From Mytilisepta virgata (lineage: Eukaryota; Mollusca; Bivalvia; Mytilida; Mytilidae), in contig JAPWFG010000015.1 of the NCBI GenBank assembly GCA_028015205.1, forward strand, positions 6,820,001-6,884,000: DNA of 64,000 nucleotides, given 5' to 3'. Below the pieces are notes generated by a model. The model had not been told where the DNA came from. It ran no database searches and worked only from the letters and a program-made list of their open reading frames with translations. How positions within the stretch are numbered: position 1 is the first letter of the stretch; every line of letters starts with the position of its first letter. Positions 28,161 to 61,072 of this stretch are shown here, in pieces. Made by a program: the position numbers and the translations under genes.

Positions 28161-28863
28161 AGTAGTATATGGGGACAGTTCAGTTATCATTTGAGGAGGA
28201 GCTGATGAGGAGGAACCGGATATGATGTCACAGTAAGTGACGCGTATTTTTTCTTTATGAGGTAATACTTTGTCTTTATGACGTTATACGTGTTTTTTGG
28301 CTCTATGACGTCATCTTCTTTATGTTTCTAACGTTTTGATTTATTTTGTTATTTTCTCAAAAGTTTTTCTTCAAAAATTTCTATTCTTCAAAATTTCAGA
28401 AGAGCAGCGATGAGCAGCATGGAGCAAGAGAAGAGCGAAATGAGTACAGTGCAGAGCAGCGAAGAGCAACACGGGACAAGAGAAGAGCAGTAGCAGCAAA
28501 AAACGAAGAGGGTACGAGAGCATTGTGCTGAGCAGCGAAGAGCAAGAGGAGAGCAGCGATGACCAGCGAAGAGCAGCATGGAGCAAGAGAAGACATTTTT
28601 CAATCCGTTTTCTATTTCCATGACGTCATGAAACATAAAACAAAAAAAAACACCTATTGAAAACATAAAAAGAACATAACGTCATAAAGATGAAAAAACG
28701 TATCACGTTATAAAGACAAAGTATTGCGTCATAAAGACGAAAAACACGTACAACGTCATAATGACAGTCTTACATCACACGCGTCACTTACTGTGACGTC
28801 ATATCCGGCTCCTCCTCATCACCTCATACTCAAATGATAACTGAAATATTTCCATATACTACT
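28161..28863. mobile_element. small foldback element, AGTAGT family, copy 2 (703 bp)
   Basis: Termini AGTAGTATATGG and CCATATACTACT are perfect inverses. Inverted similarity continues through 'cagttatcatttgag', 'gaggagga.ccggatat' and 'gtgac.tcacagtaagtgacgcg'. The middle (28,400-28,600) is a gagcagcgatgagcagcatg minisatellite, related to the array of the 37,964-47,918 element. TGACGTCA/TGACGTTA sites recur. Flanking hexamers (tataac/aattac) match at four of six positions, so the target duplication is uncertain. Arg/Leu/Ser-rich ORFs in the middle are minisatellite artefacts. Confidence 0.75.
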
Positions 28864-37957: not shown

Positions 37958-37963
37958 GGCCTA
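37958..37963. repeat. left target-site duplication GGCCTA
   Basis: GGCCTA directly precedes the AGTAGTATATG terminus. It is repeated exactly at 47,919-47,924 after the CATATACTACT terminus. Confidence 0.85.
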
Positions 37964-38420
37964 AGTAGTATATGAGCACAGGCAAAAATTAGGATTTTAG
38001 GAGGTGGAGAGGAGGAGGAGCTGTTGAGGAGCCGAAAGTGACGTAACCGGAACCGGAAGTCACGTGACCGGAACCGGAAGTACCGGAAGTGATTTGCGCA
38101 TGCGCAACCGGAAGTGACGTGTTTTTCGCGCCGTTTCTTGACGGAAGTGACGCAAGTCACGTGGTAGGACCCGGATGTGTGGTCTGCGCATGTTCAGGAA
38201 CCGGAAGTGGTTATTGCGCGCATGCGCAACCGGAAGTAGCGGATTTTCGCGCCATTTGTTGCCGGAAGTGACGTAAGTCACGTGCTAGGACCCGTATGTG
38301 TTGTCTGCGCATGTTCAGGGACCGGAAGTGATTTGCGCGCATGCGCAACCGGAAGTGATGGATTTTTGCGCCATTTCTTTACGGAAGTGACGTAAGTCAC
38401 GGACCAGGATGTGCCATGTG
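37964..38420 (+). promoter_or_regulatory. motif-dense subterminal block, left arm
   Basis: This GC-rich block holds nine CCGGAAGT (ETS-type), three GCGCATGCGC (NRF1-type), three TGACGTAA (CRE half-type), three CACGTG (E-box) and three TTTCGCGCC/TTTTGCGCC (E2F-type) sequences. Much of it is a tandem unit of about 120 bp: the NRF1-type motifs start at 38,096, 38,218 and 38,337. These motif classes typify broadly active CpG-type animal promoters. Use as a promoter or as a binding platform is inferred from motif density only. Confidence 0.6.
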
Positions 38421-38429
38421 AATTATCTC

Positions 38430-40930
38430 CCTTTTCCCGCACTTCTCGGTCGTCTCTGGATCTTTCATCGGTCTGATACCCTCACTGTTATGTCGAAGTC
38501 CGACAGTATACGAAGTACACTATTGGATTATCTCCCCTTATCCCGCTCTTTTCAGTATTTTCTGTGAGGACTAAAGGTAGGATTGGATTATGTCCCCTTA
38601 CCTGCAAGTGATGCTTGTCACCATTAGATCAATGGAGGGATGTCCTTAGCAACCGCCTTAGCAACGGCGGTCCATTTCATTGCATTCACTTAGTGTCTCT
38701 TCTCTTGCTCCGTGCTGCTCATCGCTGCTCTTCTCTTGCTCATTGCTGCTCATCACTGCTTTTCTCTTGCTCATCGCTGCTCTTCTCTTGCTCATTGCTG
38801 CTCATCACTGCTTTTCTCTTGCTCATCGCTGCTCATCACTGCTCATCACTGCTCATCTCTTGCTCATCCCTGCTCATTGCTGCTCATCTCTTGCTCATCG
38901 CTGCTCATTGCTGCTCATCTCTTGCTCATCGCTGCTCATTGCTGCTCATCTCTTGCTCATCGCTGCTCATTGCTGCTCATCTCTTGCTCATCGCTGCTCA
39001 TCTCTTGCTCCGTGCTGGTCATCGCTGCTCTTCTCTTGCTCATCGCTGCTCAGTGCTGATCATCTCTTGCTCTTTGCTGCTCATCGCTACTCAGGACCTT
39101 ACTCGCGTGCTCATTTCGCTCCTGCTGCTTGTCACTGTTCGTCATCGCTGTTCATCTCTTGATCCACCCTTTTTCCGCACTTCTCGGTCGTCTCTGGATC
39201 TTTCATCGGTCTGATACCCTGACTGTTATGTCGAAGTCCGAGAGTATACGAAGTACACTATTGGATTATCTCCCCTTATCCCGCTCTTTTCATTTGGGGG
39301 TATTTTCTGTGAGGACCAAAGGTAGGATTGGATTATGTCCCCTTACCTGCAAGTGATGCTTGTCACCATTAGATCAATGGAGGGATGTCCTTAACAACCG
39401 CCTTAGCAACGGCGGTCCATTTCATTGCATTCACTTAGTTTCTCTTCTCTTGCTCCGTGCTGCTCATCGCTGCTCTTCACTGCTCATTGCTGCTCATCTC
39501 TTGCTCATCGCTGCTCATTGCTGCTCATCTCTTGCTCATCGCTGCTCATTGCTGCTCATCTCTTGCTCATCGCTGCTCATTGCTGCTCATCTCTTGCTCA
39601 TCGCTGCTCATTGCTGCTCATCTCTTGCTCATCGCTGCTCATTGCTGCTCATCTCTTGCTCATCGCTGCTCATTGCTGCTCATCTCTTGCTCATCGCTGC
39701 TCATTGCTGCTCATTTCTTGCTCATCGCTGCTCATCGCTGCTCTTCTCTTGCTCAGCGCTGCTCATTGCTGCTCATCGCTACTCAGGACCTTACTCGCGT
39801 GCTCATTTCGCTCCTGCTGCTTGTCACTGTTCGTCATCGCTGTTCATCTCTTGATCCATCCTTTTCCCGCACTTCTCGGTCGTCTCTGGATCTTTCATCG
39901 GTCTCTAGGGTCTGATACTCTCACTGTTATGTCGAAGTCCGGGAGTATACGAAGTACACTATTGGATTATCTCCCCTTATCCTGCTCTTTTCATCTGTGG
40001 GTGATGTTTTCTGTGAGGACCAACGGTAGGATTGGATTATGTCCCCTACCTCCAAGTGATGCTGTCACCAATAGATCAATGGAGGGGTGACCTTAGCAAC
40101 TGCCTTAACAACGGCGTCCATTTCTATGATACACTTCGTTTCTCTTCTCTTGCTCCATCCCGCTCCTCGCTGCTCTTCTCTTGCTCTGTGCTGCTCATCG
40201 CTGCTCTTCTCTTGCTCATCGCTGCTCATCACTGCTCATTGCTGCTCATCTCTTGCTCATCTCTTGCTCATCGGTGCTCATTGCTGCTCATCTCTTGCTC
40301 ATCGCTGCTCATCACTGCTCATCGCTGCTCATTGCTGCTCATCACTGCTCTTCTCTTGCTCTTTGCTGCTCATCGCTACTCAGGACCTTACTCGCGTGCT
40401 CATTTCGCTCCTGTTTCTTGTTGCTGTTCGTCATCGCTGTTCATCTCTTGCTCCGGGCTGCCCATCGCTGCTCTTCTCTTGCTCATCGTTGCTCTTCTCT
40501 TGCTCATTGCTGCTCATCACTGCTCATCGCTGCTCATCTCTGGCTCCGTGTTGCTCTTCTCTTGCTCTTTGCTGCTCATCGCTACTCAGGACCTTACTCG
40601 CGTGCTCATTTCGCTCCTGTTGCTTGTTGCTGTTCGTCATCGCTGCTCTTCTCTTGCTCTTTGCTGCTCAATGCTACTCAGGACCTTACTCGCGTGCTCA
40701 TTTCGCTTCTGTTGCTTGTTGCTGTTCGACATCGGTGCTCTTCTCTTGCTCATCGCTGCTCTTATCTTGCTCTTTCCTGCTCATCGCTACTCAGGACCTT
40801 ACTCGTGTGCTCATTTCAGTTTTAGGGCTATTGCTGCTAGTGGTGGTCGATTGTCGTTATTCAAAGATTGGATCTGTGAGAGAGCACACGGTGGGTCACT
40901 CTGCATTTATCCAGGCTTGTGACTGGCTAT
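38430..40930 (+). repeat. higher-order repeat with 31-bp minisatellite, left arm
   Basis: Units open with a roughly 250-bp unique-like block ('ttcccgcacttctcggtcg' to 'agcaacggcggtccatttc'), starting near 38,430, 39,170 and 39,860. Each block leads into a gctcatcgctgctcattgct array of 31-bp period, closed by 'ctactcaggaccttactcgcgtgctcatttcg'. The last unit contains several repeats of that closing block. Because 31 is not a multiple of three, all three frames stay open and read the same periodic Cys/Leu/Ser/His peptide, which explains the long overlapping ORFs. No real CDS is inferred. Confidence 0.85.
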
Positions 40931-41202
40931 CATAAGGTAGGCTGCATTAATCCTCCTCAATTTTTTAAGGCCACTCTGCATTTATCCAGGCTTGTGACTG
41001 GCTATATATACACTGAACCGCAAAAGAAACGTCGCACAAAATGACATGTTCACATACATTTATTTCAAAGTGACATTTATATATTTTAAATTAATTTTTA
41101 CAAAATTTAATGAATGATTTACAGTCTTTTGGTTACAATGTTCACAAAAACGTCACAATTGTCGCAACGTCACATGATTTCAATGCTGTGCTCCCACGTC
41201 CG

Positions 41203-42240
41203 TTAATAACGTGTATGTCCTCCACCGGCACCAATTACTGCGGCACATCTTCGGTACATGGAGTTGATGAGCCGATTAATAAACGCCATCGGAATACTTG
41301 CCCATACTCTCTGAAACGCTTGTGAAAGTTCAGCTGCAGTTGTCGGACTTGGCTGCTCATTATTCAACTGTCTTTGAACTTCGCCCCATAAATGTTCAAT
41401 AGAGTTTAAATCTGGACTCAAAGCCGGCCAATCCATAACATTAATGTTATTCTGCTGTAGGAAGTCTCTTGTGGCACTTGCGGTATGCGCACGTGCATTG
41501 TCCTGTTGGAAAGTCTTGTTTTGATGACGTGCGAAATGGGGCTGAACATGGGGTGTCAAGACTTGGTCGATGTAACGGGCAGCTGTTACGCCATTTCCTC
41601 TGCCTGGGCCAAGGTTCTGAAAGATGACTGGACCAAGTTTAACGTTAAGGCCGATACCACCCCATACCATGATGCTAGCTCCTCCCCACGCGTCTGTTTC
41701 CAGAATGCAGCTGTCTTCGTAACGTTCCCCGCGTCTTCTCCACACTCTGGTTCTGCCATCGGCTGTTGAAATGCAGTAACGGCTTTCGTCAGAGAAGATG
41801 ATGTTACGCCATTGTCGATTTCGCCAATTCTGTCGCTGAGTGGCCCACTGAAGACGAGCTTGACGGTGTCGAGGAGTAAGAACAGGTCCTCTTGCTGGAC
41901 GGCGACATCTCATGTTTCTAGCAGCTAATCGCCGACGAACCGTATCATCACTTATGGGTCGTCCATGTGTTCCAACAGTGTTTCTGGCAGTTTCGGCAGC
42001 TGGGGTGAACCAATTCATCAAATGGTGACGAACAATGCCTCTATTCTGTCTAGGGGTAGTGACTTGGGGTCTACCACTCCGTGGACGGTCATTTGTGCTG
42101 TTTGTTGCATTGTACCGTGTCCGTAGACGTTCAATTGTTCGAACAGCACAGTTGAAGTCGTTGGCAATAACTCTGGCAGATTGCCCAGCATCCAATCGAC
42201 CAATGGCCTGTTCTCCATGTTGTGGAGGCAGACGTGGCAT
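41203..42240 (-). CDS. Tc1-family DD34E transposase
   Basis: This would catalyse cut-and-paste transposition of its own element into TA sites. N-terminal helix-turn-helix DNA-binding regions (about residues 10-65 and 90-130) flank a GRPR-like basic motif (RPRSGRP). The catalytic triad is visible: Asp in IIFSDES, Asp in FQQDNARAHTA, and Glu in NSIEHLWGE exactly 34 residues after the second Asp. The frame is open for 345 codons, the usual family length, with no stops. An in-frame ATG exists at 42,303, but TATAAAAG lies just beside it. I therefore place the start at the ATG at 42,240 (MPRLPPQHGE), downstream of this presumed TATA box. It appears intact; activity is not shown. Confidence 0.9.
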   Translation of the reverse strand: MPRLPPQHGEQAIGRLDAGQSARVIANDFNCAVRTIERLRTRYNATNSTNDRPRSGRPQVTTPRQNRGIVRHHLMNWFTPAAETARNTVGTHGRPISDDTVRRRLAARNMRCRRPARGPVLTPRHRQARLQWATQRQNWRNRQWRNIIFSDESRYCISTADGRTRVWRRRGERYEDSCILETDAWGGASIMVWGGIGLNVKLGPVIFQNLGPGRGNGVTAARYIDQVLTPHVQPHFARHQNKTFQQDNARAHTASATRDFLQQNNINVMDWPALSPDLNSIEHLWGEVQRQLNNEQPSPTTAAELSQAFQRVWASIPMAFINRLINSMYRRCAAVIGAGGGHTRY

Positions 42241-42287
42241 AGCTTCTGTGTCAACACTGATACTAACACTCTTTAATTTTCCCCGGC

Positions 42288-42296
42288 CTTTTATAC
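42288..42296 (-). promoter_or_regulatory. TATA box of the Tc1 transposase
   Basis: TATAAAAG on the minus strand lies about 50 bp upstream of the chosen ATG at 42,240. It would place transcription start between the two possible ATGs, favouring the shorter protein. Confidence 0.55.
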
Positions 42297-42434
42297 CCAT
42301 CAAGGAGCATGAATTTCACGAACATTTAAGATTTAAGAAAAATTACCGCCAAGTGTGTCCCACGAGCGGTTTTAGGTGCGGTCGCTCTACGATATCAACT
42401 GAAAATTATTCAACCGAAAATTTAATTCACAGGT

Positions 42435-42538
42435 AATTTAATCTTACCTGGTGATGTAATCGTAATACTGATTATATAAAAATCTTAATTTAATCTTACC
42501 TGGTGATGTAATCGTAATACTGATTATATAAAAATCAT
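42435..42538. repeat. 52-bp tandem duplication inside the Tc1 element
   Basis: Two near-identical 52-bp copies (42,435-42,486 and 42,487-42,538), each with 'ttacctggtgatgtaatcg', lie between the transposase and the right terminal repeat. It could be an internal subterminal repeat or a replication slip. Confidence 0.85.
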
Positions 42539-42718
42539 TAATTAATATTTATTTTGAATTTTGCTAACATTTTGAAAAAGCGACGTTTCTTTTGCGGTTC
42601 AGTATATGTATAAACATATATAGGCTGCATTACCCTCCTTCCCTTTTTTATAGTTTTTTTAAATTTTTTATTTTTTTTATATATTTTTTTTCTGGTTTTT
42701 TTTTTCTTTGTACCAATT

Positions 42719-43295
42719 TCACATAGAGTCATTGCTGTCTTCAGCTGGTGGTAGGTCGTAGTCGTTCAATACACGATTAAGCAGATATTTTCGTTTTTCT
42801 ACGGCATATTCCCATGATTCTTTTGATTCGTAGTCTTCCTCTTCTCTCAAGCGTTTAGCCGTTTTCTTGATCTTTCAATGTACGGGGTCTTTTATTCATG
42901 TCTTGATGCCAGGACAATAGTCCGAGGTAATGGTTTCGCATTTCGTCTCTGTATGTGTCAAACATGTCTCGATATGCTACCAAGCGTGCCTCGTCTTCTT
43001 CCATTCCGGCTTCGACAAGTTCGTTTACTTTCTGTGAGTATTCCGATTGATGTACTTGAAATGTTCTATTCAAAATGACTTCCCATGGAGACTGTTCGCA
43101 TTGCTCTTCGGAGTCTTCGTTGGACTCCTGTTCACTACTTTGTTCGGATTCCTCGTTATCGGCTTCTGTGGTGGTATCTGAGACTGAATTACTATGGTCT
43201 GTTGAATCCTTCTCCATACCGTGTGCATTCTTTTTGTGTCGCACTATGTTGAAGTTTCGCTTGGACTGGTATCCACATATGTCACAGGTATACAT
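42719..43295 (-). pseudogene. ORF-B, left-arm copy: C2H2 zinc-finger protein, frameshifted
   Basis: Homologous to the intact right-arm ORF-B at 44,638-45,213. It shares the N-terminal C2H2 finger (YTCDICGYQSKRNFNIVRH then KKNAH) and the long Glu/Ser/Asp-rich acidic stretch. Near 42,894 the left copy has one extra A (AATAAAAGACC versus AATAAAGACC on the coding strand). The frame is diverted after DMNK and stops early, at 146 codons instead of 191. The homologous 3' sequence continues to the original stop position at 42,719. It is probably inactive as a full-length protein. Confidence 0.75.
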
Positions 43296-43751
43296 TTAAG
43301 ACGTCTTTCTTTCCTTGGATTCAATAGTAGAATGAGCTGTGGTCGTCCTGCAAGTGCTTATATTACCTACAGGTTCCTCAACGGCTTGTTGATTCATACA
43401 CAAACGTTTGGCAAAGTATTCGTTTCGAGATTGTTGCAGTTCAGATTTCACTTTTCTGATGAGGTTTCTATTAAGTCTTGTCCACTCGTTGTCAATCCTT
43501 CTACACCCCTTGCAGACATTCATGTTTTTGTAGAATTCCGCAAAGCTCTTGTTCATTTGACACTTTGTACATTTCTTGTTTGGATCCACTTTGCTGGGTC
43601 TTCCACTTGTGTTGTCCAGCCGTTTGGTTCTCTCCACTTTGGTTGGAAGTATTTTCTTTTTCATTTCTGGTTTTGCTTTGGTCTTTGAAAGATCCACAGG
43701 TATTAAGTATCTACCAGGAACCAATAAACCGAGAGGCGTTTTCGACTCCAT
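43296..43751 (-). CDS. ORF-A, left-arm copy: small Cys-x2-Cys zinc-ribbon-type protein
   Basis: A 151-codon open frame from ATG at 43,751. A Lys/Pro-rich N-terminus is followed by KKCTKCQMNKSFAEFYKN and CKGCRR (about residues 60-85). This CxxC-x(14)-CxxC pair with a K-x-C...FYxN context resembles small zinc ribbons of phage, viral and element-borne proteins. A charged, Arg/Gln-rich helix-like region follows. It ends in TAA immediately followed by the ATG of ORF-B in the same frame. The first half lies in the element's unique centre and the second half in the palindrome. Function is unknown; nucleic-acid binding is inferred from Cys pattern and basic charge. Confidence 0.6.
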   Translation of the reverse strand: MESKTPLGLLVPGRYLIPVDLSKTKAKPEMKKKILPTKVERTKRLDNTSGRPSKVDPNKKCTKCQMNKSFAEFYKNMNVCKGCRRIDNEWTRLNRNLIRKVKSELQQSRNEYFAKRLCMNQQAVEEPVGNISTCRTTTAHSTIESKERKTS

Positions 43752-44335
43752 TGGTACGTGTGTGTTGTTTGACGGTCTTCAAACAACTGACGAAATTAAA
43801 CAAAACCTCTGAATATATTTTCGTTAAAAGCTTTCCATTGGCGTCATGGTGGCGAAGATTGTGTTTGTCTATTCATTCAGACAACACAGTTCGCAGCTCG
43901 TCATTGTAGTTTGCTGCTCATCATTGCTCATCTTTTGCTCCGCGCTGCTCATTGCTGCTCATCTCTTGCTCATCGCTGCTCATTTCTGCTCATCTCTTGC
44001 TCATCGCTGCTCATTGCTGCTCATCTCTTGCTTATCACTGCTCATTGCTGCTCATCTCTTGCTCATCGCTGCTCATTGCTGCTCATCTCTTGCTCTTTGC
44101 TGCTCATTGCTACTCAGGACCTTACTCGCGTGCTCATTTCGCTCCTGCCGAGTCCTAACCCCAACCCTAACTCTAACCCTAACCCTAACCCTAGTTCTAA
44201 CCCTAATTTTAACTTTTACCCTAACCCTAGTGCTGCCTCTAACCCATATCGTAGGACTGTCTCGTACTCTTACTCTAAGCGCTCATACCTCACGTCGTTG
44301 GATCACCTAAGCAAGCGTGACTGTTTGCCTCGTGT
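43598..44335. other. unpaired centre of the palindrome
   Basis: Arm homology ends at 43,597 and resumes in inverse at 44,336. The 738-bp centre holds the 5' half of left ORF-A, its presumed upstream region, a minisatellite block (43,905-44,150, same orientation as the left arm), telomere-like repeats, and an 80-bp unique piece. The asymmetry truncates ORF-A on the right side. Confidence 0.75.
44154..44252 (+). repeat. interstitial telomere-like repeats (CCCTAA)n, degenerate
   Basis: About 100 bp of CCCTAA and one-base variants (ctctaa, ccctag, ttctaa), with six or so exact hexamers. It is the C-rich strand of the TTAGGG-type repeat used by molluscs and vertebrates. Degeneracy and flanking sequence on both sides show this is internal and not a chromosome end. 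Confidence 0.85.
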
Positions 44336-44376
44336 CCAGCAAAGTGGATCCAAGCAAGAAATGTACAAAGTGTTAA

Positions 44377-44637
44377 ATGAACAAGAGCTTTGCGGAATTC
44401 TACAAAAACATGAATGTCTGCAAGGGGTGTAGAAGGATTGACAACGAGTGGACAAGACTTAATAGAAACCTCATCAGAAAAGTGAAATCTGAACTGCAAC
44501 AATCTCGAAACGAATACTTTGCCAAACGTTTGTGTATGAATCAACAAGCCGTTGAGGAACCTGTAGGTAATATAAGCACTTGCAGGACGACCACAGCTCA
44601 TTCTACTATTGAATCCAAGGAAAGAAAGACGTCTTAA
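44377..44637 (+). pseudogene. ORF-A, right-arm copy, 5'-truncated
   Basis: Identical in sequence to the last 86 codons of left ORF-A (MNKSFAEFYKNMNVCKGCRR to KERKTS). The upstream half is absent because arm homology begins at 44,336. The first CxxC pair of the zinc ribbon lies before the only in-frame ATG: a K-C-T-K-like sequence partly survives but is out of context. A product starting at 44,377 would lack half of the metal-binding site. Confidence 0.7.
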
Positions 44638-45213
44638 ATGTATACCTGTGACATATGTGGATACCAGTCCAAGCGAAACTTCAACATAGTGCGACACAAA
44701 AAGAATGCACACGGTATGGAGAAGGATTCAACAGACCATAGTGATTCAGTCTCAGATACCACCACAGAAGCCGATAACGAGGAATCCGAACAAAGTAGTG
44801 AACAGGAGTCCAACGAAGACTCCGAAGAGCAATGCGAACAGTCTCCATGGGAAGTCATTTTGAATAGAACATTTCAAGTACATCAATCGGAATACTCACA
44901 GAAGGTAAACGAACTTGTCGAAGCCGGAATGGAAGAAGACGAGGCACGCTTGGTAGCATATCGAGACATGTTTGACACATACAGAGACGAAATGCGAAAC
45001 CATTACCTCGGACTATTGTCCTGGCATCAAGACATGAATAAAGACCCCGTACATAGAAAGATCAAGAAAACGGCTAAACGCTTGAGAGAAGAGGAAGACT
45101 ACGAATCAAAAGAATCATGGGAATATGCCGTAGAAAAACGAAAATATCTGCTTAATCGTGTATTGAACGACTACGACCCACCACCAGCTGAAGACAGCAA
45201 TGACTCTATGTGA
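44638..45213 (+). CDS. ORF-B, right-arm copy: intact C2H2 zinc-finger protein
   Basis: A 191-codon frame. Residues 2-25 form one C2H2 finger (CDIC, then twelve residues, H, KKNA, H). Residues 30-75 are strongly acidic (EADNEESEQSSEQESNEDSE). The C-terminal half is helical and charged, ending near YLLNRVLNDYDPPPAEDSN. The start codon directly abuts the TAA of ORF-A in the same frame. A single finger suggests nucleic-acid or protein contact and the acidic region could act in transcription, both inferred. The left-arm copy differs by few residues plus a frameshift, so this is the only full-length copy here. Confidence 0.65.
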   Translation: MYTCDICGYQSKRNFNIVRHKKNAHGMEKDSTDHSDSVSDTTTEADNEESEQSSEQESNEDSEEQCEQSPWEVILNRTFQVHQSEYSQKVNELVEAGMEEDEARLVAYRDMFDTYRDEMRNHYLGLLSWHQDMNKDPVHRKIKKTAKRLREEEDYESKESWEYAVEKRKYLLNRVLNDYDPPPAEDSNDSM

Positions 45214-45389
45214 AATTGGTACAAAGAAAAAAAAACAGGAAAAAATATATAAAAATAAAAAATTTAAAAAAATTAAAAAAAAGGGAAGGAGGGTAATGCA
45301 GCCTATATATGTTTATACATATATATAGCCAGTCACAAGCCTGGATAAATGCAGAGTGGCCTTAAAAAATTGAGGAGGATTAATGCAGC

Positions 45390-47585
45390 CTACCTTATGA
45401 TAGCCAGTCACAAGCCTGGATAAATGCAGAGTGACCCACCGTGTGCTCTCTCACAGATCCAATCTTTGAATAACGACAATCGACCACCACTAGCAGCAGT
45501 AGCCCTAAAACTGAAATGAGCACGCGAGTAAGGTCCTGAGTAGCGATGAGCAGCAAAGAGCAAGATAAGAGCAGCGATGAGCAAGAGAAGAGCAGCGATG
45601 TCAAACAGCAACAAGCAACAGGAGCGAAATGAGCACGCGAGTAAGGTCCTGAGCAGCAAAGAGCAAGAGAAGAGCAGCGATGACGGACAGCAACAAGCAA
45701 CAGGAGCGAAATGAGCACGCGAGTAAGGTCCTGAGTAGCGATGAGCAGCAAAGAGCAAGAGAAGAGCAACACGGAGCCAGAGATGAGCAGCGATGAGCAG
45801 TGATGAGCAGCAATGAGCAAGAGAAGAGCAGCGATGGGCAGCCCGGAGCAAGAGATGAACAGCGATGACGAACAGCAACAAGAAACAGGAGCGAAATGAG
45901 CACGCGAGTAAGGTCCTGAGTAGCGATGAGCAGCAAAGAGCAAGAGAAGAGCAGCGATGAGCAGCAATGAGCAGCGATGAGCAGTGATGAGCAGCGATGA
46001 GCAGTGATGAGCAGCGATGAGCAAGAGATGAGCAGCAATGAGCAGCGATGAACAAGAGATGAGCAGCAATGATCAGCGATGAGCAAGAGATGAGCAGCAA
46101 TGAGCAGCGATGAGCAAGAGAAGAGCAGCGATGAGCAGCACAGAGCAAGAGAAGAGCAGCGAGGAGCGGGATGGAGCAAGAGAAGAGAAACGAAGTGCAT
46201 CATAGAAATGGACGCCGTTGTTAAGGCAGTTGCTAAGGACACCCCTCCATTGATCTATTGGTGACAGCATCACTTGGAGGTAGGGGAACATAATCCAATC
46301 CTACCGTTGGTCCTCACAGAAAACATCACCCACAGATGAAAAGAGCGGGATAAGGGGAGATAATCCAATAGTGTACTTCGTATACTCCCGGACTTCGACA
46401 TAACAGTGAGAGTATCAGACCCTAGAGACCGATGAAAGATCCAGAGACGACCGAGAAGTGCGGGAAAAGGATGGATCAAGAGATGAACAGCGATGACGAA
46501 CAGTGACAAGCAACAGGAGCGAAATGAGCACGCGAGTAAGGTCCTGAGTAGCGATGAGCAGCAAAGAGCATGGGTTGAGCAGCAATGAACAAGAGAAGAG
46601 CAGTGATGAGCAAGAGAAGAGCAGTGGTGAGCAGCACGGAGCAAGAGATGAGAAACGAAGTGCATCATAGAAATGGACCTCCGTTGCTAAGGCGGTTGTT
46701 AAGGACATCCCTCTACTGGTAACAGCATTACTTGGAGGCAAGGGGACATAATCCAATCCTACCTTTGGTCCTCACAGAAAACATCACCCACAGATGAAAA
46801 GAGCGGGATAAGGGGAGATAATCCAATAGTGTACTTCGTATACTCTCGGACTTCGACATAACAGTCAGGGTATCAGACCGATGAAAGATCCAGAGACGAC
46901 CGAGAAGTGCGGGAAAAGGGTGGATCAAGAGATGAACAGCGATGACGAACAGTGACAAGCAGCAGGAGCGAAATGAGCACGCGAGTAAGGTCCTGAGTAG
47001 CGATGAGCAGCAAAGAGCAAGAGATGAGCAGCAATGAGCAGCGATGAGCAGCACGGAGTAAGAGATGAGCAGCGATGAGCAAGAGATGAGCAGCAATGAG
47101 CAGCGATGAGCAAGAGATGAGCAGCGATGAGCAAGAGATGAGCAGCAATGAGCAGCGATGAGCAAGAGATGAGCAGCAATGATCAGCGATGAGCAAGAGA
47201 TGAGCAGCAATGAGCAGCGATGAGCAAGAGATGAGCAGCAATGAGCAGGGATGAGCAAGAGATGAGCAGTGATGAGCAGCGATGAGCAAGAGAAGAGCAG
47301 TGATGAGCAGCAATGAGCAAGAGAAGAGAAACTAAGTGAATGCCGTTGCTAAGGCGGTTGCTAAGGACATCCCTCCATTGATCTAATGGTGACAAGCATC
47401 ACTTGCAGGTAAGGGGACATAATCCAATCCTACCTTTGGTCCTCACAGAAAATACTGAAAAGAGCGGGATAAGGGGAGATAATCCAATAGTGTACTTCGT
47501 ATACTCTCGGACTTCGACATAACAGTGAGGGTATCAGACCGATGAAACATCCAGAGACGACCGAGAAGTGCGGGAAAAGGGAGAT
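45390..47585 (-). repeat. higher-order repeat with 31-bp minisatellite, right arm
   Basis: Inverse counterpart of 38,430-40,930, with the same opening blocks (near 46,200-46,460, 46,660-46,915 and 47,340-47,575) and closing 'gagcacgcgagtaaggtcctgag' blocks. Copy numbers of minisatellite units differ from the left arm, so the arms are not identical in length. Overlapping long minus-strand ORFs here are periodicity artefacts. Confidence 0.85.
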
Positions 47586-47589
47586 AGTT

Positions 47590-47918
47590 CACATGGCACA
47601 TCCTGGTCCGTGACTTACGTCACTTCCGTAAAGAAATGGCGCAAAAATCCATCACTTCCGGTTGCGCATGCGCGCAAATCACTTCCGGTCCCTGAACATG
47701 CGCAGACCACACATCCGGGTCCTAGCACATGACTTACGTCACTTCCGTCAACAAATGGCGCGAAAAACACGTCACTTCCGGTTGCGCATGTGTGACTTCC
47801 GGTTCCGGTCAACTTTCTGTGACGTCATTTCCGGTTCCGGTGACGTCACTTCCGGCTCCTCCACAGCTCCTCCTCTCCACCTCCTCAAATCCTAATTTGC
47901 CTGTGCCCATATACTACT
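47590..47918 (-). promoter_or_regulatory. motif-dense subterminal block, right arm
   Basis: Mirror of 37,964-38,420 with one fewer 120-bp unit. It has five ACTTCCGG (ETS-type, reverse), a GCGCATGCGC-type site, TGACGTCA sites and TTACGTCA half-type sites. The outermost 60 bp matches the left end closely (gctcctcctctccacctcct). Confidence 0.6.
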
Positions 47919-47924
47919 GGCCTA
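47919..47924. repeat. right target-site duplication GGCCTA
   Basis: Exact copy of the hexamer at 37,958-37,963, immediately outside the right terminus. Confidence 0.85.
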
Positions 47925-56634: not shown

Positions 56635-59600
56635 TTATGAGTGTAGGTAAGTTAAACTTTTTGACCCTAATTTTCTGGAATCAGCATTTCCTTTAATAAG
56701 CTTCATTATGCCATCATGCCCCCTTGACCAAGCCAGGTCAATCGGTGTCTGACCTTTGCCATCGGCTTTATTTACATCACCATTGTTTTCAAGTAATAAT
56801 TTCAACATTTCTATATTACCATTCTCACAGCATACATGCACTGGAGTCTGACCTATATTGTTACACTGATTTATATCCGCTTTGTATTCAAGTAATACTT
56901 TAACAGTCTCATTAAAGCTAACCTCCCGCCTTAGTTTATCATAATAATCGAAAGATGTTTTGCACTTCCTGTATTGATAAATGCCAGCCTTATTTTTCAA
57001 AAGAGATTTGACAGTACCAGCAGATCCTATATAAGCTCTATGTAATGATGACTCTCCATATTCATCACAGTGAGACACATCAGCATTGTTCTTCAGTAAC
57101 AGTTTTACTGTATCTGTATGTCCTCCTTCACAAGCTATATACAATGGTGACTGTCTATATATATATCACACTGAGAGACATCAGCATTGTTCTCCAGTAA
57201 CAGTTTTACTACATCTGTATATCCTCCTTCACAAGCTTTATACAATGGTGACTGTCCATCTTCATCACACTGAGAGACATCAGCATTGTTCTCCAGTAAC
57301 AGTTTTACTATATCTGTATATCCTTCTTTACAAGCTTTATACAATGGTGACTCTCGATCTTCATCACACTGAGAGACATCAGCCTTGTTCTCCAGTAACA
57401 GTTTTAGTACATCTGTATGTCCTCCTTCACAAGCTTTATACAATGATGACTGTCTATCTTCATCACACTGAGAGACATCAGCATTGTTCTCCAGTAACAG
57501 TTTTACTATATCTGTATATCCTTCTTTACAAGCTTTATACAATGGTGACTGTCCATCTTCATCACACTGACAGACATCAGCATGGTTCTCCAGTAACAGT
57601 TTTAGTACATCTGTATGTCCTCTTTCACAAGCTTTATACAATGGTGATTGTCCATCTTTATCACACTTAGAGATATCAGCATTGTTCTTCAGTAACAGTT
57701 TTACTATATCTGTATGTCCTCCTTCACAAGCTTTATACAATGGTGACTGTCCATCTTCATAACACGGAGAGACATCAGCATTGTTCTTCAGTAACACTTT
57801 TACTGTATCTGTATGTCCTCCTTCACAAGCTTTATACAATGGTGACGGTCCATCTTTATCACACTTAGAGACATCAGCATTGTTCTTCAGTAACAGTTCT
57901 ACTGCATCTGTATGTCCTCCTTTACAAGCTTTATACAATGGCGACTATCCATCTTTATCACACTTAGAGACATCAGCATTGTCCTTCAGTAACAGTTTTA
58001 CTATATCTGTATGTCCTCCTTCACAAGGTTTATACAATGGTGACTGTCCATCTTTATCACACTGAGAGACATCAGCATTGTTCTTCAGTAACACTTTTAC
58101 TATATCTGTATGTCCTCCATCACAAGCTATATACAATGGTGACTGTCCATCTTCATCACACTTAGAAACATCAGCATTGTTCTTCAGTAACAGTTTTACT
58201 ATATTTGTATATCCTCCTTCACAAGCTTTATACAATGGTGATTGTCCATCTTTATCACACGGAGAGACATCAGCCTTGTTCTGCAGTAACAGTTTTACTG
58301 TATCTGTATGTCCTCCTTCACAAGCTTTATACAATGGTGACTGTCCATCTTCATCACACTGAGAGACATCAGCATTGTTCTCCAGTAACAGTTTTAGTAC
58401 ATCTGTGTGTCCTCCTTCACAAGCTTTACACAATTGTGATTGTCCATCTTTATCACACTTAGAGACATCAGCATTGTTCTTCAATAACTGTTTTACAATA
58501 TATGTATGTCCTCCTTCACAAGCTTTTTACAATGGTGACTGTCCATCTTTATCACACTGAGAGACATCAGCATTGTTCTTCAGTAACACTTTTACTATAT
58601 CTGTATGTCCTCCATCACAAGCTATATACAATGGTGACTGTCCATCTTTATCACATTTAGAAACATCAGCATTGTTCTTCAGTAACAGTTTTACTATATC
58701 TGTATGTCCTCCTTCACAAGCTATATACAATGGTGACTGTCCATCTTTATCACACTTAGAGACATCAGCATTGTTCTTCAGTAACAGTTTTACTATATCT
58801 GTATGTCCTACTTCACAAACTTTATACAATGGTGACTGTCCATCTTTATAACACTGAGAGACATCAGCATTGTTCTTCAGTAACAGTTTTACTATATCTG
58901 TATGTCCTCCTTCACAAGCTATATACAATGGTGACTGTCCATCTTTATCACACTTAGAGAGATCAGCATTGTTCTTCAGTAACAGTTTTACTATATCTGT
59001 ATGTCCTACTTCACAAGCTTTATACAATGGTGACTGTCCATCTTTATCACACTGAGAGACATCAGCATTGTTCTTCAGTAACAGTTTTACTATATCTGTA
59101 TGTCCTCCTTCACAAGCTTTATACAATGGTGACGGTCTATATTCAGCACACTGAGAGACATCAGCATGGTTCTCCAGTAACAGTTTTACTGTTTCTGTAT
59201 ATCCTCCCTCACAAGCTGTATACAATGATGACGGTCCATATTTATCACACTGAGAGACATCAGCATTGTTCTCCAGTAACAGTTTTACTATATCTGTATG
59301 TCCTCCTTTACAAGAAATATACAATGGTGACTGTCCATATTCATCACACTGTGAGACATCAGCATTGTTCTCAAGTAACAGTTTTACAGTATCTGTATGT
59401 CCTCCTTCACAAGCTATATACAATGGTGACTGTCCATATTCATCACACTGAGAGACATCAGCATTGTTCTCAAGTAAGTGTTTTACAGTATCTGTATGTC
59501 CTCCTTCACAAGCTATATAAAATAGTGACTGTCCATATTCATCACACTGAGAGACATCAGCATAATTTTCTAGTAATAATTTAACGTTATCTTTATAACC

Positions 59601-61072
59601 CAGTTCACAAGCTTTATATAAAGGCGACATCTTCTTATCATTAACTGTATTGACAGTACATCCTATTTCAATCAGAAACTTTACAATGTCTGTATATCCT
59701 TCTGTTACGGCTTCTATCAGAGGAGTAGTTATTTTTGGTTTATTAAACAATGAGAAGATATAACGTTCATCAACACCTCCTCTATCCATTTTTACATATT
59801 TCATTTCAGTGAAAACTGATTTTATGTTATCTCTGCTTTCTGTCCAGTATGTAATTAACTTTTCTCTGTATTTCTCATACTTTAATTGTTTATTATGTAG
59901 GGAGCTATAAATATAATTCTCTCTCAAATCTTGGAAAGTACGGTCAAAATATATTTCTTCAATGTATTCCTCTACTGGTATAAAACTGGTTTGATGGCTA
60001 TCAACAGATTTAAACATAAATCTATCCCCTATGAATGTACCAGGTGCATACTTTATAAAACATTCTGTAAGATGTTTTCCACATATAATAGCTGCAATGT
60101 CATAAATTTTATCATGTATAATACTATAAACACTATTTATCTCCTTGGTAAATGTACCAACAAGAGCTGATAAGCTTTTTTTAATCGAATTTTTATCTGT
60201 TTGAAGATTTAAATCTAACTTACATTCCTTGAAAATGTTCTCAATTGTGTTCTTAATATCTTCCTGAACACCCCTTGGATTTAAAAATTCAAATTTAAAA
60301 CCGTTTTTAAAAATTATACACAGACAGAGGGAACAAAAATGTGCAGATTCTCTTATCTTTAGCTCTTCAATGTCATTTTTAATAGTGTCTAATGGTTCAG
60401 ACAAAAGGAGATTAATTCTATCAAAGGATTGTTCAACTGACAGCTTACAAAGTAATGGAAAGAAATCAAATTTACCAATTATATGTTTTTTAATCTTTTT
60501 TATCATGTCTTCTGAAATGTATTGTTTTAAAATTAACGACCTTTCGTTTGGCAATAAACTTAAATCTGGGGAAAGCAAATTACATTCTTGTTCAAATAAG
60601 TTAAGTCTTTCAATCTGGTGATCTCTAAATATGTGAAGTCGACATGAAACTATTATTTTGGTTGAACAATTGGTAGCTGTCTTTACTTTCTCGTCTGTTC
60701 TTTCAACTGTTTTTTCTTTCCCAAATATCTTCTTTAATTTCCATGTGTTATCCTTCCACATTTTGATTGTTTGAATATTAATTGTTTCTTTGCCAAAAAT
60801 ATCATCTATTACAAAGACTTGTTTCTTTTTAAAATTATAGTATCGTATAATGTCAGCTGGACCTGACACACAAGTTACAATCTCATACTGGTCATGTTGA
60901 GTTAACTCTAAAGTCACGTGATGGACGATTGAAGATTTACCTGATCCAGAACTTCCTGTTACAACAACAGCGTTAAATGACAAAACTTTGTCTTTTACGA
61001 ACTTCGATGCTCTTGTCACAACAAACTCCTGATCTTCATATTTCCATTCCTGAATATCTGTTTTAATTTGAT
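56635..61072 (-). pseudogene. STAND NTPase with about 31 ankyrin repeats (broken gene, 5' exon missing)
   Basis: The exon starts at 61,072 after a ttatttgcag acceptor, phase 1; the ATG at 61,097 lies in the intron. The N-terminal 450 residues hold a P-loop NTPase: Walker A TGSSGSGKSS, Walker B VFVIDDIFG, then KIIVSCRL. These suit the nSTAND3-like group found with HEPN/DZIP3-type domains in mollusc proteins. From about 59,720 the protein is 33-residue ankyrin repeats (SPLYKACEGGHTDIVKLLLK type), about 31 of them, the last three diverged. Three lesions interrupt it: TAT-to-TAA at 58,527-58,529, CAG-to-TAG at 57,945-57,947, and a ta-run frameshift near 57,155-57,165. Intact parts would bind nucleotide and protein partners, plausibly in innate sensing (inferred). 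Lesions could be allelic or assembly errors. Confidence 0.75.

Follow-up and report, generated by a model that had tools for sequence, protein, structure and literature searches.

How an element that consists almost entirely of inverted repeat is inserted into a genome, and how its two halves come to resemble each other, are the questions raised by a palindromic locus of the bivalve Mytilisepta virgata. The window analysed here is a stretch of 64,000 nucleotides of contig JAPWFG010000015.1 (C15:6820001-6884000 in the contig numbering used below), and relatives of its element, which occupies window positions 37964-47918, were searched for in the assembly of 1,034,323,453 bases in 109 contigs. 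The original prediction, made from the letters of the window, had described a palindromic element with 11-bp termini flanked by exact copies of GGCCTA, and this was borne out: the termini (AGTAGTATATG) are alike over 11 bp, mismatched at base 12 (A/G) and matching again over some bases. The predicted inverted arms of 3.6-4 kb are present as well, the left one at 37964-41010 and 42603-43597 (~4.0 kb) and the right one at 44336-47918 (~3.6 kb). We read the window copy as a putative non-autonomous Polinton derivative that is mobilised in trans by Polintons and, judging by its ends, its target duplication and its relatives, assign a probability of roughly 0.87 to this reading. If it is right, virus-like Polintons have parasites of their own within an animal genome.

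Polinton-type ends and target duplications

Vertebrate Mavericks are described in PMC8097293 with 5′-(AGT)2//(ACT)2-3′ ends and 6-bp duplications, and the window element has ends and a duplication of this kind together with a terminal repeat common to integrase-bearing copies. Polintons of M. virgata that encode an rve integrase with a chromodomain have the same end, the same terminal repeat and a 6-bp duplication. In locus L027, which holds only part of a Polinton, frames for the integrase (rve, 6.2e-15; Chromo, 7.8e-10), an ATPase-like protein (Pox_A32, 4e-5) and a CARD protein (5.4e-11, with a weak PC4 match) were recognised. This locus closes in the family terminus, and its end matches the ends of the window element at 78-94% across the 12 longest pieces. 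For the L027 integrase at least 120 matches were obtained (116 scored of 3,012 candidates); the first 50 in the list align over at least 349 of 351 residues with 95-100% identity, and five of these have a stop. The proposal of a foldback-like family mobilised in trans by an integrase of Polinton type gains support from these Polintons with the same ends, and the undescribed class that had been considered alongside is not needed for integration.

The window copy is regarded as a derivative rather than an autonomous Polinton because it gave no tblastn match (E<=1e-4) to eight Polinton frames, namely the integrase, the ATPase, two polymerase-region pieces and four others. The same frames were unmatched in L009, L014, L016, L023, L024, L068 and L093, and in L011, L012, L013, L015, L025 and L028 the sole match was that of the PC4-like part of the CARD frame (27-30% identity) to the copy's own PC4-like gene. 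The claim that no matching enzyme is encoded thus stands for these Polinton enzymes but not for the element as a whole, whose left arm holds a Tc1-like transposase frame. The window copy further differs from Polintons in being nearly all inverted repeat, and the central hairpin of the family was not found by pattern search in the Polinton loci examined; some family copies do hold Polinton frames (PC4-like and 91-aa).

The heptamer CCGGAAG occurs nine times in the left and five times in the right terminal 450-bp stretch; it is absent from the 9,055-bp middle of the element, and the window outside the element (54,045 bp) has three. For TGACGT the counts are four (left) and seven (right) in the terminal stretches, three in the middle and 21 in the remaining window. 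Since Polinton ends are likewise rich in CCGGAAG (10 and 7 per 600 bp), the promoter-like motifs are taken as a property of the shared Polinton end, and not, as had been proposed, as host-like promoter motifs forming a cargo of the element's own.

With the left 431 bp as query at least 60 matches were obtained (40 scored of 2,885 candidates). The terminus AGTAGTATATGNGCACAG was found with at most one mismatch at 692 forward and 777 reverse places (1,469 in total, Polinton ends included), compared to 0 and 1 places for the control, the same pattern read backwards. Target duplications were tabulated for 29 end pairs, comprising eight loci fetched for other reasons (the window, C6, C9, C2:26.4M, C13b, C14, C9b and the C5 Polinton) and 21 loci paired by eye from 100 places listed. 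The pairing by eye yielded 26 convergent pairs, 22 of which were used (including C2:26.4M) and four left out (C3:38956847, C4:833780, C4:7437081 and C4:42837530); L014, L026, L027 and L028, whose two ends were not found within 10 kb, were left out as well. The duplication is exact in 25 of the 29 pairs, in agreement with the predicted consistency of termini and duplications among copies, and three of these are Polintons (C2:5492604, CCAGAC; C2:6637097, GTTAAG; C5, CTCATT). Inexact duplications were seen at C14 (5/6), C9b (4/6), C5:3157568 (4/6) and C3:37309056 (5/6). Two pairs of loci, C1:23472814 with C1:24979129 and C3:38898261 with C3:38427477, share their 6-bp duplication and, over the length read, have identical (or inverted) flanks, and are probably segmental duplications carrying the element; after C1:24979129 and C3:38427477 were dropped, 23 of 27 duplications are exact. 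Among the 23 exact independent targets there is a tendency towards NWYRWN (18 of 23 agreeing at each of the four inner positions), a weak symmetry of the kind expected of retroviral-type integrases.

Palindromic relatives and the shared centre

Six relatives of ~15 kb are palindromic where read, and outside the centre their arms are 99-100% identical within a copy. Two palindromes were read over their whole length: C2:26.4M is palindromic throughout (5,546 bp at 99.95%, then 4,165 columns including the centre at 99.06%), and in C13b the arms, which enclose a spacer of ~930 bp, are identical at 99.96% over 5,127 bp and at 99.89% over 1,753 bp. In C1:20.5M, of which 10 of 14.6 kb were seen, 4,515 columns around and including the centre are 99.5% identical. 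The 20-bp flanks of these three loci differ apart from the duplication. Of the listed end pairs 13-16 kb apart, four were set aside (two for which an integrase was listed and two that had been fetched before), and the midpoints of the remaining four were read. In C1:31.44M and C2:38.4M the centre is palindromic, and outside it 530 and 540 bp, respectively, are identical at 100%; C5:8.96M has arms of 99-100% around ~490 bp. At C4:833780 the midpoint lies in Polinton DNA without a palindrome. Arm identity, sampled over 300 bp at a distance of 1 kb inward of the ends, is 100% (C1:31.44M), 100% (C2:38.4M) and 99.3% (C5:8.96M), and the control Polinton C2:5492604 gave no arm match in such stretches. 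Between copies, four palindromic relatives differ by 8-18% in the pieces compared: C2:26.4M is 92.2% identical to C1:20.5M (6,069 columns), 89.8% to C1:31.44M (549 columns) and 82.2% to C2:38.4M (269 columns), and the latter two share 88.5% (269 columns). The longest arm pieces are 86-93% identical in C6, C9, C9b and C14 and 97% in C13a; C6, C9, C9b and C13a have one open reading frame (ORF) region each. In the window element the arms are 94-99% complementary across collinear pieces and carry tandem repeats with units of 10, 21 and 31 bp.

A central hairpin with a stem of ~11 bp (GCAAGCGTGAC) and a 16-nt loop is common to eight copies (C6, C9, C2:26.4M, C9b, C1:20.5M, C7b, C1:31.44M and C2:38.4M). 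Five of the eight hairpins contain four mismatched internal nucleotides (CTAA opposite ACCA); at this point C6 and C1:20.5M are symmetric, and the C9b hairpin is cut. In the 28 pairs of these copies the innermost 38 bases are 94.7-100% and the innermost 56 bases 83.9-100% identical. The window retains half of the hairpin, whose loop is cut, with DNA internal to ORF1 attached at the cut; to the right of the centre ~0.7 kb has apparently been lost. What had passed for a 738-bp spacer is, by its sequence, probably unpaired inner left arm ending in half of the family's central hairpin; its first 435 bp match the inner arms of L025 at 89.5%, and it contains five CCCTAA within 44165-44224 (shuffles: mean 0.22, maximum 3). 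On one side of the loop in C6, C9 and C9b, repeats of the outer arm start within ~20-90 bp, which is what a loss of palindrome centres in chromosomes would lead one to expect. Telomere-like CCCTAA/TTAGGG repeats stand beside the palindrome centre or fill it (window 44165-44224; L012, L015, L025 and L089-L091). In several copies CCCTAA stands before the centre and TTAGGG after it; repeats that stand beside the centre are oriented opposite to a telomere fusion.

Arms that are alike within a copy, copies that are unlike one another and a central hairpin that is shared suggest copying via a self-complementary hairpin. In such a cycle the Polinton integrase would insert the family elements in trans, to judge from the shared ends, and the protein-primed Polinton polymerase would copy them. 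The displaced palindromic strand would fold into a hairpin about the shared central loop, so that its halves act as partner strands, and repair or copying would equalise both halves in every cycle; whether folding of the displaced strand equalises the arms in this way seems to us about evenly balanced. After insertion the palindrome would decay, often by one-sided loss of DNA adjoining the centre; the window copy, which also received the Tc1-like element, has apparently suffered such a loss. If this is true, likeness within and difference between copies would be the trace of a mode of DNA copying, and the protein-primed cycle inferred for Polintons would become testable. The arms, if identical at insertion, could possibly serve as a clock of insertion time.

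Several observations weigh against this picture. The two ORF regions of the window are 98.0% alike and the left one is nearer to L014 (98.8%) and L011 (98.5%); the window copy may, by these identities, be a recombinant, its own arms give no support for homogenisation, and their outermost 267 bp are only 86% alike. The eight centres were picked by a 32-base pattern with at most two substitutions, which favours similarity on one side, and in a comparison over 50 bases on either side the flank exceeds the centre in similarity in six of ten pairs and falls short of it in four, the flanks being gappy. C13b and C5:8.96M have a different centre, made of degenerate TTAGGG repeats. Regarding the polymerase, no PolB or capsid domain was detected by Pfam in the Polinton frames scanned. 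In favour of a Polinton polymerase, 233 relatives were obtained for a polymerase-region piece of the C5 Polinton, among which P0036 (50% identity over 96%) carries PF03175, which we take to be the protein-primed type B polymerase family; it is the only one of 120 listed relatives with a Pfam label, and the putative polymerase assignment depends on this one labelled sequence.

A serious rival to the replication hairpin is that the arms were made identical in the chromosome, by gene conversion or by ectopic duplication like the terminal-repeat extension of Galileo, the elements still being Polinton derivatives. Long inverted arms are able to convert each other, conversion could also yield a shared centre, and the arms of the window copy are not each other's nearest relatives. 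For ectopic duplication Galileo, with its internally repetitive, extended terminal repeats and a duplication of 7 bp, offers a precedent (PMC3573991). Set against this are the ~99.9% identity over ~7-kb arms outside the centre in the two copies read fully, the 100% identity in sampled stretches of two further copies, and the one centre that several copies differing by 8-18% have in common, which late independent duplication would not yield. We consider an origin of arm identity in the chromosome possible, though short of probable.

An assembly artefact is a far more remote explanation of the palindrome. Large palindromes are a hazard in assembly, and the ~53.5-kb inverted repeat on C5, with its palindromic flanks, may be such a case; yet the flanks differ save for the 6-bp duplication at 25 of the 29 pairs, and of four additional long pairs for which no integrase was listed, three are palindromic at the midpoint. 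At the window locus an artefact is unlikely because the arms differ, the Tc1-like unit lies in one arm only, and other loci have the same kind of structure with duplications of their own. Similarly improbable is movement by an unrelated cut-and-paste transposase (IS3EU, Dada or Ginger2) or by the nested Tc1-like enzyme. According to the original prediction duplications of 6-7 bp are also made by IS3EU and Dada, and Ginger2 prefers 6-bp AT-rich targets, but the termini of Ginger2 are TGTNR (PMC2836005) and the element ends in AGTAGT. The Tc1-like unit is nested, adjoins TA and cannot explain the 6-bp duplication of the whole element, in which neither the TA duplication nor the Tc1-type ends of Tc1/mariner elements were found. 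Moreover, integrase-bearing Polintons have the same end, terminal repeat and duplication as the element, and these other movers were therefore rejected in favour of Polintons as the likely helpers.

The Drosophila Foldback element (FB) has repeats of 10, 20 and 31 bp and a 9-bp duplication, and both Galileo and Foldback have a P- or MuDR-type transposase. The present family is like FB and Galileo in its very long, internally repetitive inverted arms and unlike them in its ends, its 6-bp duplication and its likely Polinton helper; none of the three window frames scanned by Pfam matched a P- or MuDR-type transposase.

Reading frames of the family

The zinc-finger ORFs of the original prediction turned out to be two inverted copies of one frame, ORF2, with a single C2H2 finger. 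The right-arm copy is open (191 aa) and the left-arm copy is frameshifted. ORF2 has seven protein relatives elsewhere (best E 8.5e-66), and in an alignment of six sequences the C2H2 finger and the C-terminal part are conserved. For the AlphaFold2 model the confidence score (pLDDT) is 72; Foldseek against the PDB gave nothing at E<=0.001 and single zinc fingers at E above 1. No relatives were found in viral contigs among 44 pattern matches, and ORF2 was not found by tblastn (E<=1e-4) in the Polinton loci L017-L022 and L027, where L017 and L018 cover the C5 Polinton end to end. The ratio of nonsynonymous to synonymous substitution rates (dN/dS) is 0.20-0.54 in 10 pairs of five copies, two of them with in-frame stops. 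Pairs involving L009 or L024, whose in-frame stops were skipped, account for the low values; the three pairs among fully open copies have ratios of 0.38-0.54, based on few changes. ORF2 is broken in L009, L012, L024, L025, L028 and the left arm of the window, and in L014 one zinc ligand is changed; therefore ORF2 is not needed from each copy. Its lesions are common to both arms within L012, and likewise within L025, which speaks for the hairpin cycle. A second frame, ORF1, was rejected as a gene, since its dN/dS is scattered about 1 (0.13-2.43 where defined; 28 pairs, eight copies) without clear selection and no protein relatives were found at E<=0.001.

Other copies carry two frames close to Polinton frames, a PC4-like gene (C13b: Pfam PC4, 2.6e-18) and a frame of 91 aa whose match to Bcl-2 is below threshold (C13b: E 5e-4). 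Both lie inside C2:26.4M, C1:20.5M, C13b, C9 (with unequal arms) and C7b (seen only in part), and C14 has part of the PC4 frame; the PC4 frame of C9 is shifted and the 91-aa frame of C1:20.5M has a stop. In the window, C6, C9b and C13a neither frame was found by tblastn. For PC4, 20 of 21 pairs have a dN/dS of 0.11-0.35; the remaining one, C2:26.4M against C1:20.5M, gives 0.53 on three changes. Compared with three Polintons, the PC4 genes of these two copies have a dS of 0.65-0.72 and a dN/dS of 0.18-0.23; the gene may have been under this selection while still part of a Polinton, prior to its capture. The AlphaFold2 model of the PC4-like protein alone was not used (pLDDT 42). A 485-aa Polinton frame had no match in a PDB sequence search. 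The CARD-domain frame (L027:7805-8773) and a small frame at L015:6970-7239, which is shared with the palindromes and has a sub-threshold Bcl-2 match, are by these matches a possible apoptosis-related cargo; among the papers listed on Polintons with PC4 or Bcl-2 none was relevant.

A further reading, which we offer tentatively and regard as rather doubtful, is that the family is a hyperparasitic replicon and an animal-genome counterpart of satellite viruses. The replicon would be linear, with a Polinton end on one side and the conserved hairpin on the other; the protein-primed Polinton polymerase would round the hairpin and produce a palindromic dimer, which the Polinton integrase would then insert. 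Selection would maintain ORF2 and, in some copies, the PC4-like single-stranded DNA-binding protein for their role in this cycle.

In poxvirus-type hairpin telomeres and concatemer junctions an imperfect palindromic centre with unpaired bases joins identical arms, and the likeness to the family is one of resemblance only. Adenovirus panhandles form by self-complementary folding. Snap-back genomes of adeno-associated virus (AAV) are self-complementary as well (PMC8235507). Like the AAV and adenovirus forms, the family, known here from its sequence alone, would fold on itself and depend on a helper; unlike them, it is integrated and inherited as a repeat family. No account of palindromic or non-autonomous Polintons was found in the literature titles and abstract openings listed. 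PMC4028283 cites, and argues against, an earlier suggestion that the Tlr elements derive from Polintons and are non-autonomous.

Layout of the window element and its surroundings

The features of the window element are compiled in Table 1. The nested Tc1-like transposon, which like the shared hairpin and the near-identical arms of other copies had gone unmentioned in the original prediction, has an open transposase frame at 41206-42315 on the minus strand (370 aa stop to stop; Pfam DDE_3, 8.5e-16, and HTH_Tnp_Tc3_2, 2.2e-12) and is possibly a young insertion.

Table 1. Features of the palindromic element, in window positions
Feature	Position	Strand	Remarks
Left 6-bp target-site duplication	37958..37963	.	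GGCCTA
Left Polinton-type terminal repeat	37964..38413	+	starts AGTAGTATATGAGCACAGGC; 78-92% in pieces to ends of L027 and L017
Outer left arm	37964..41010	+	holds 10-, 21- and 31-bp tandem repeats
Nested Tc1-like transposon	41011..42603	-	short inverted ends adjoining TA; absent from right arm
Inner left arm	42604..43597	-	frameshifted copy of C2H2 frame; 98.4% to right arm over 995 bp
ORF1	43299..43742	-	open frame with CxxC...CxxC motif; probably not a gene
'Spacer' (738 bp)	43598..44335	.	probably inner left arm, right counterpart missing; ends in half hairpin
Half of central hairpin	44304..44335	+	cut inside loop; exact match to centres of L025, L089 and L090
Right arm	44336..47918	-	
ORF2 (191 aa)	44638..45210	+	one C2H2 finger, acidic stretch, helical C-terminal part
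Right Polinton-type terminal repeat	47469..47918	-	ends ...ACTACT
Right 6-bp target-site duplication	47919..47924	.	GGCCTA

The guanine and cytosine content per kb is 0.38-0.51 within the element and 0.25-0.40 outside it. Beyond the element, positions 28397-28593 show a weak similarity of 73-75% to the short-repeat arrays of the arms. The inverted duplication of ~53.5 kb on contig C5 (C5:10884800-10938800, L017-L022) has 17.25-kb arms at 99.87% and a tandem-repeat middle; it takes in host flanks and, in the arm, a 13.3-kb Polinton with its own CTCATT duplication. It was rejected as a double Polinton, the flanks being palindromic too, and is a chromosomal inverted duplication or an assembly error. 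Finally, a 99-bp tandem repeat of 26 copies was observed at window positions 57033-59618; its unit of 33 codons suggests a repeat-protein gene, perhaps of the ankyrin type.

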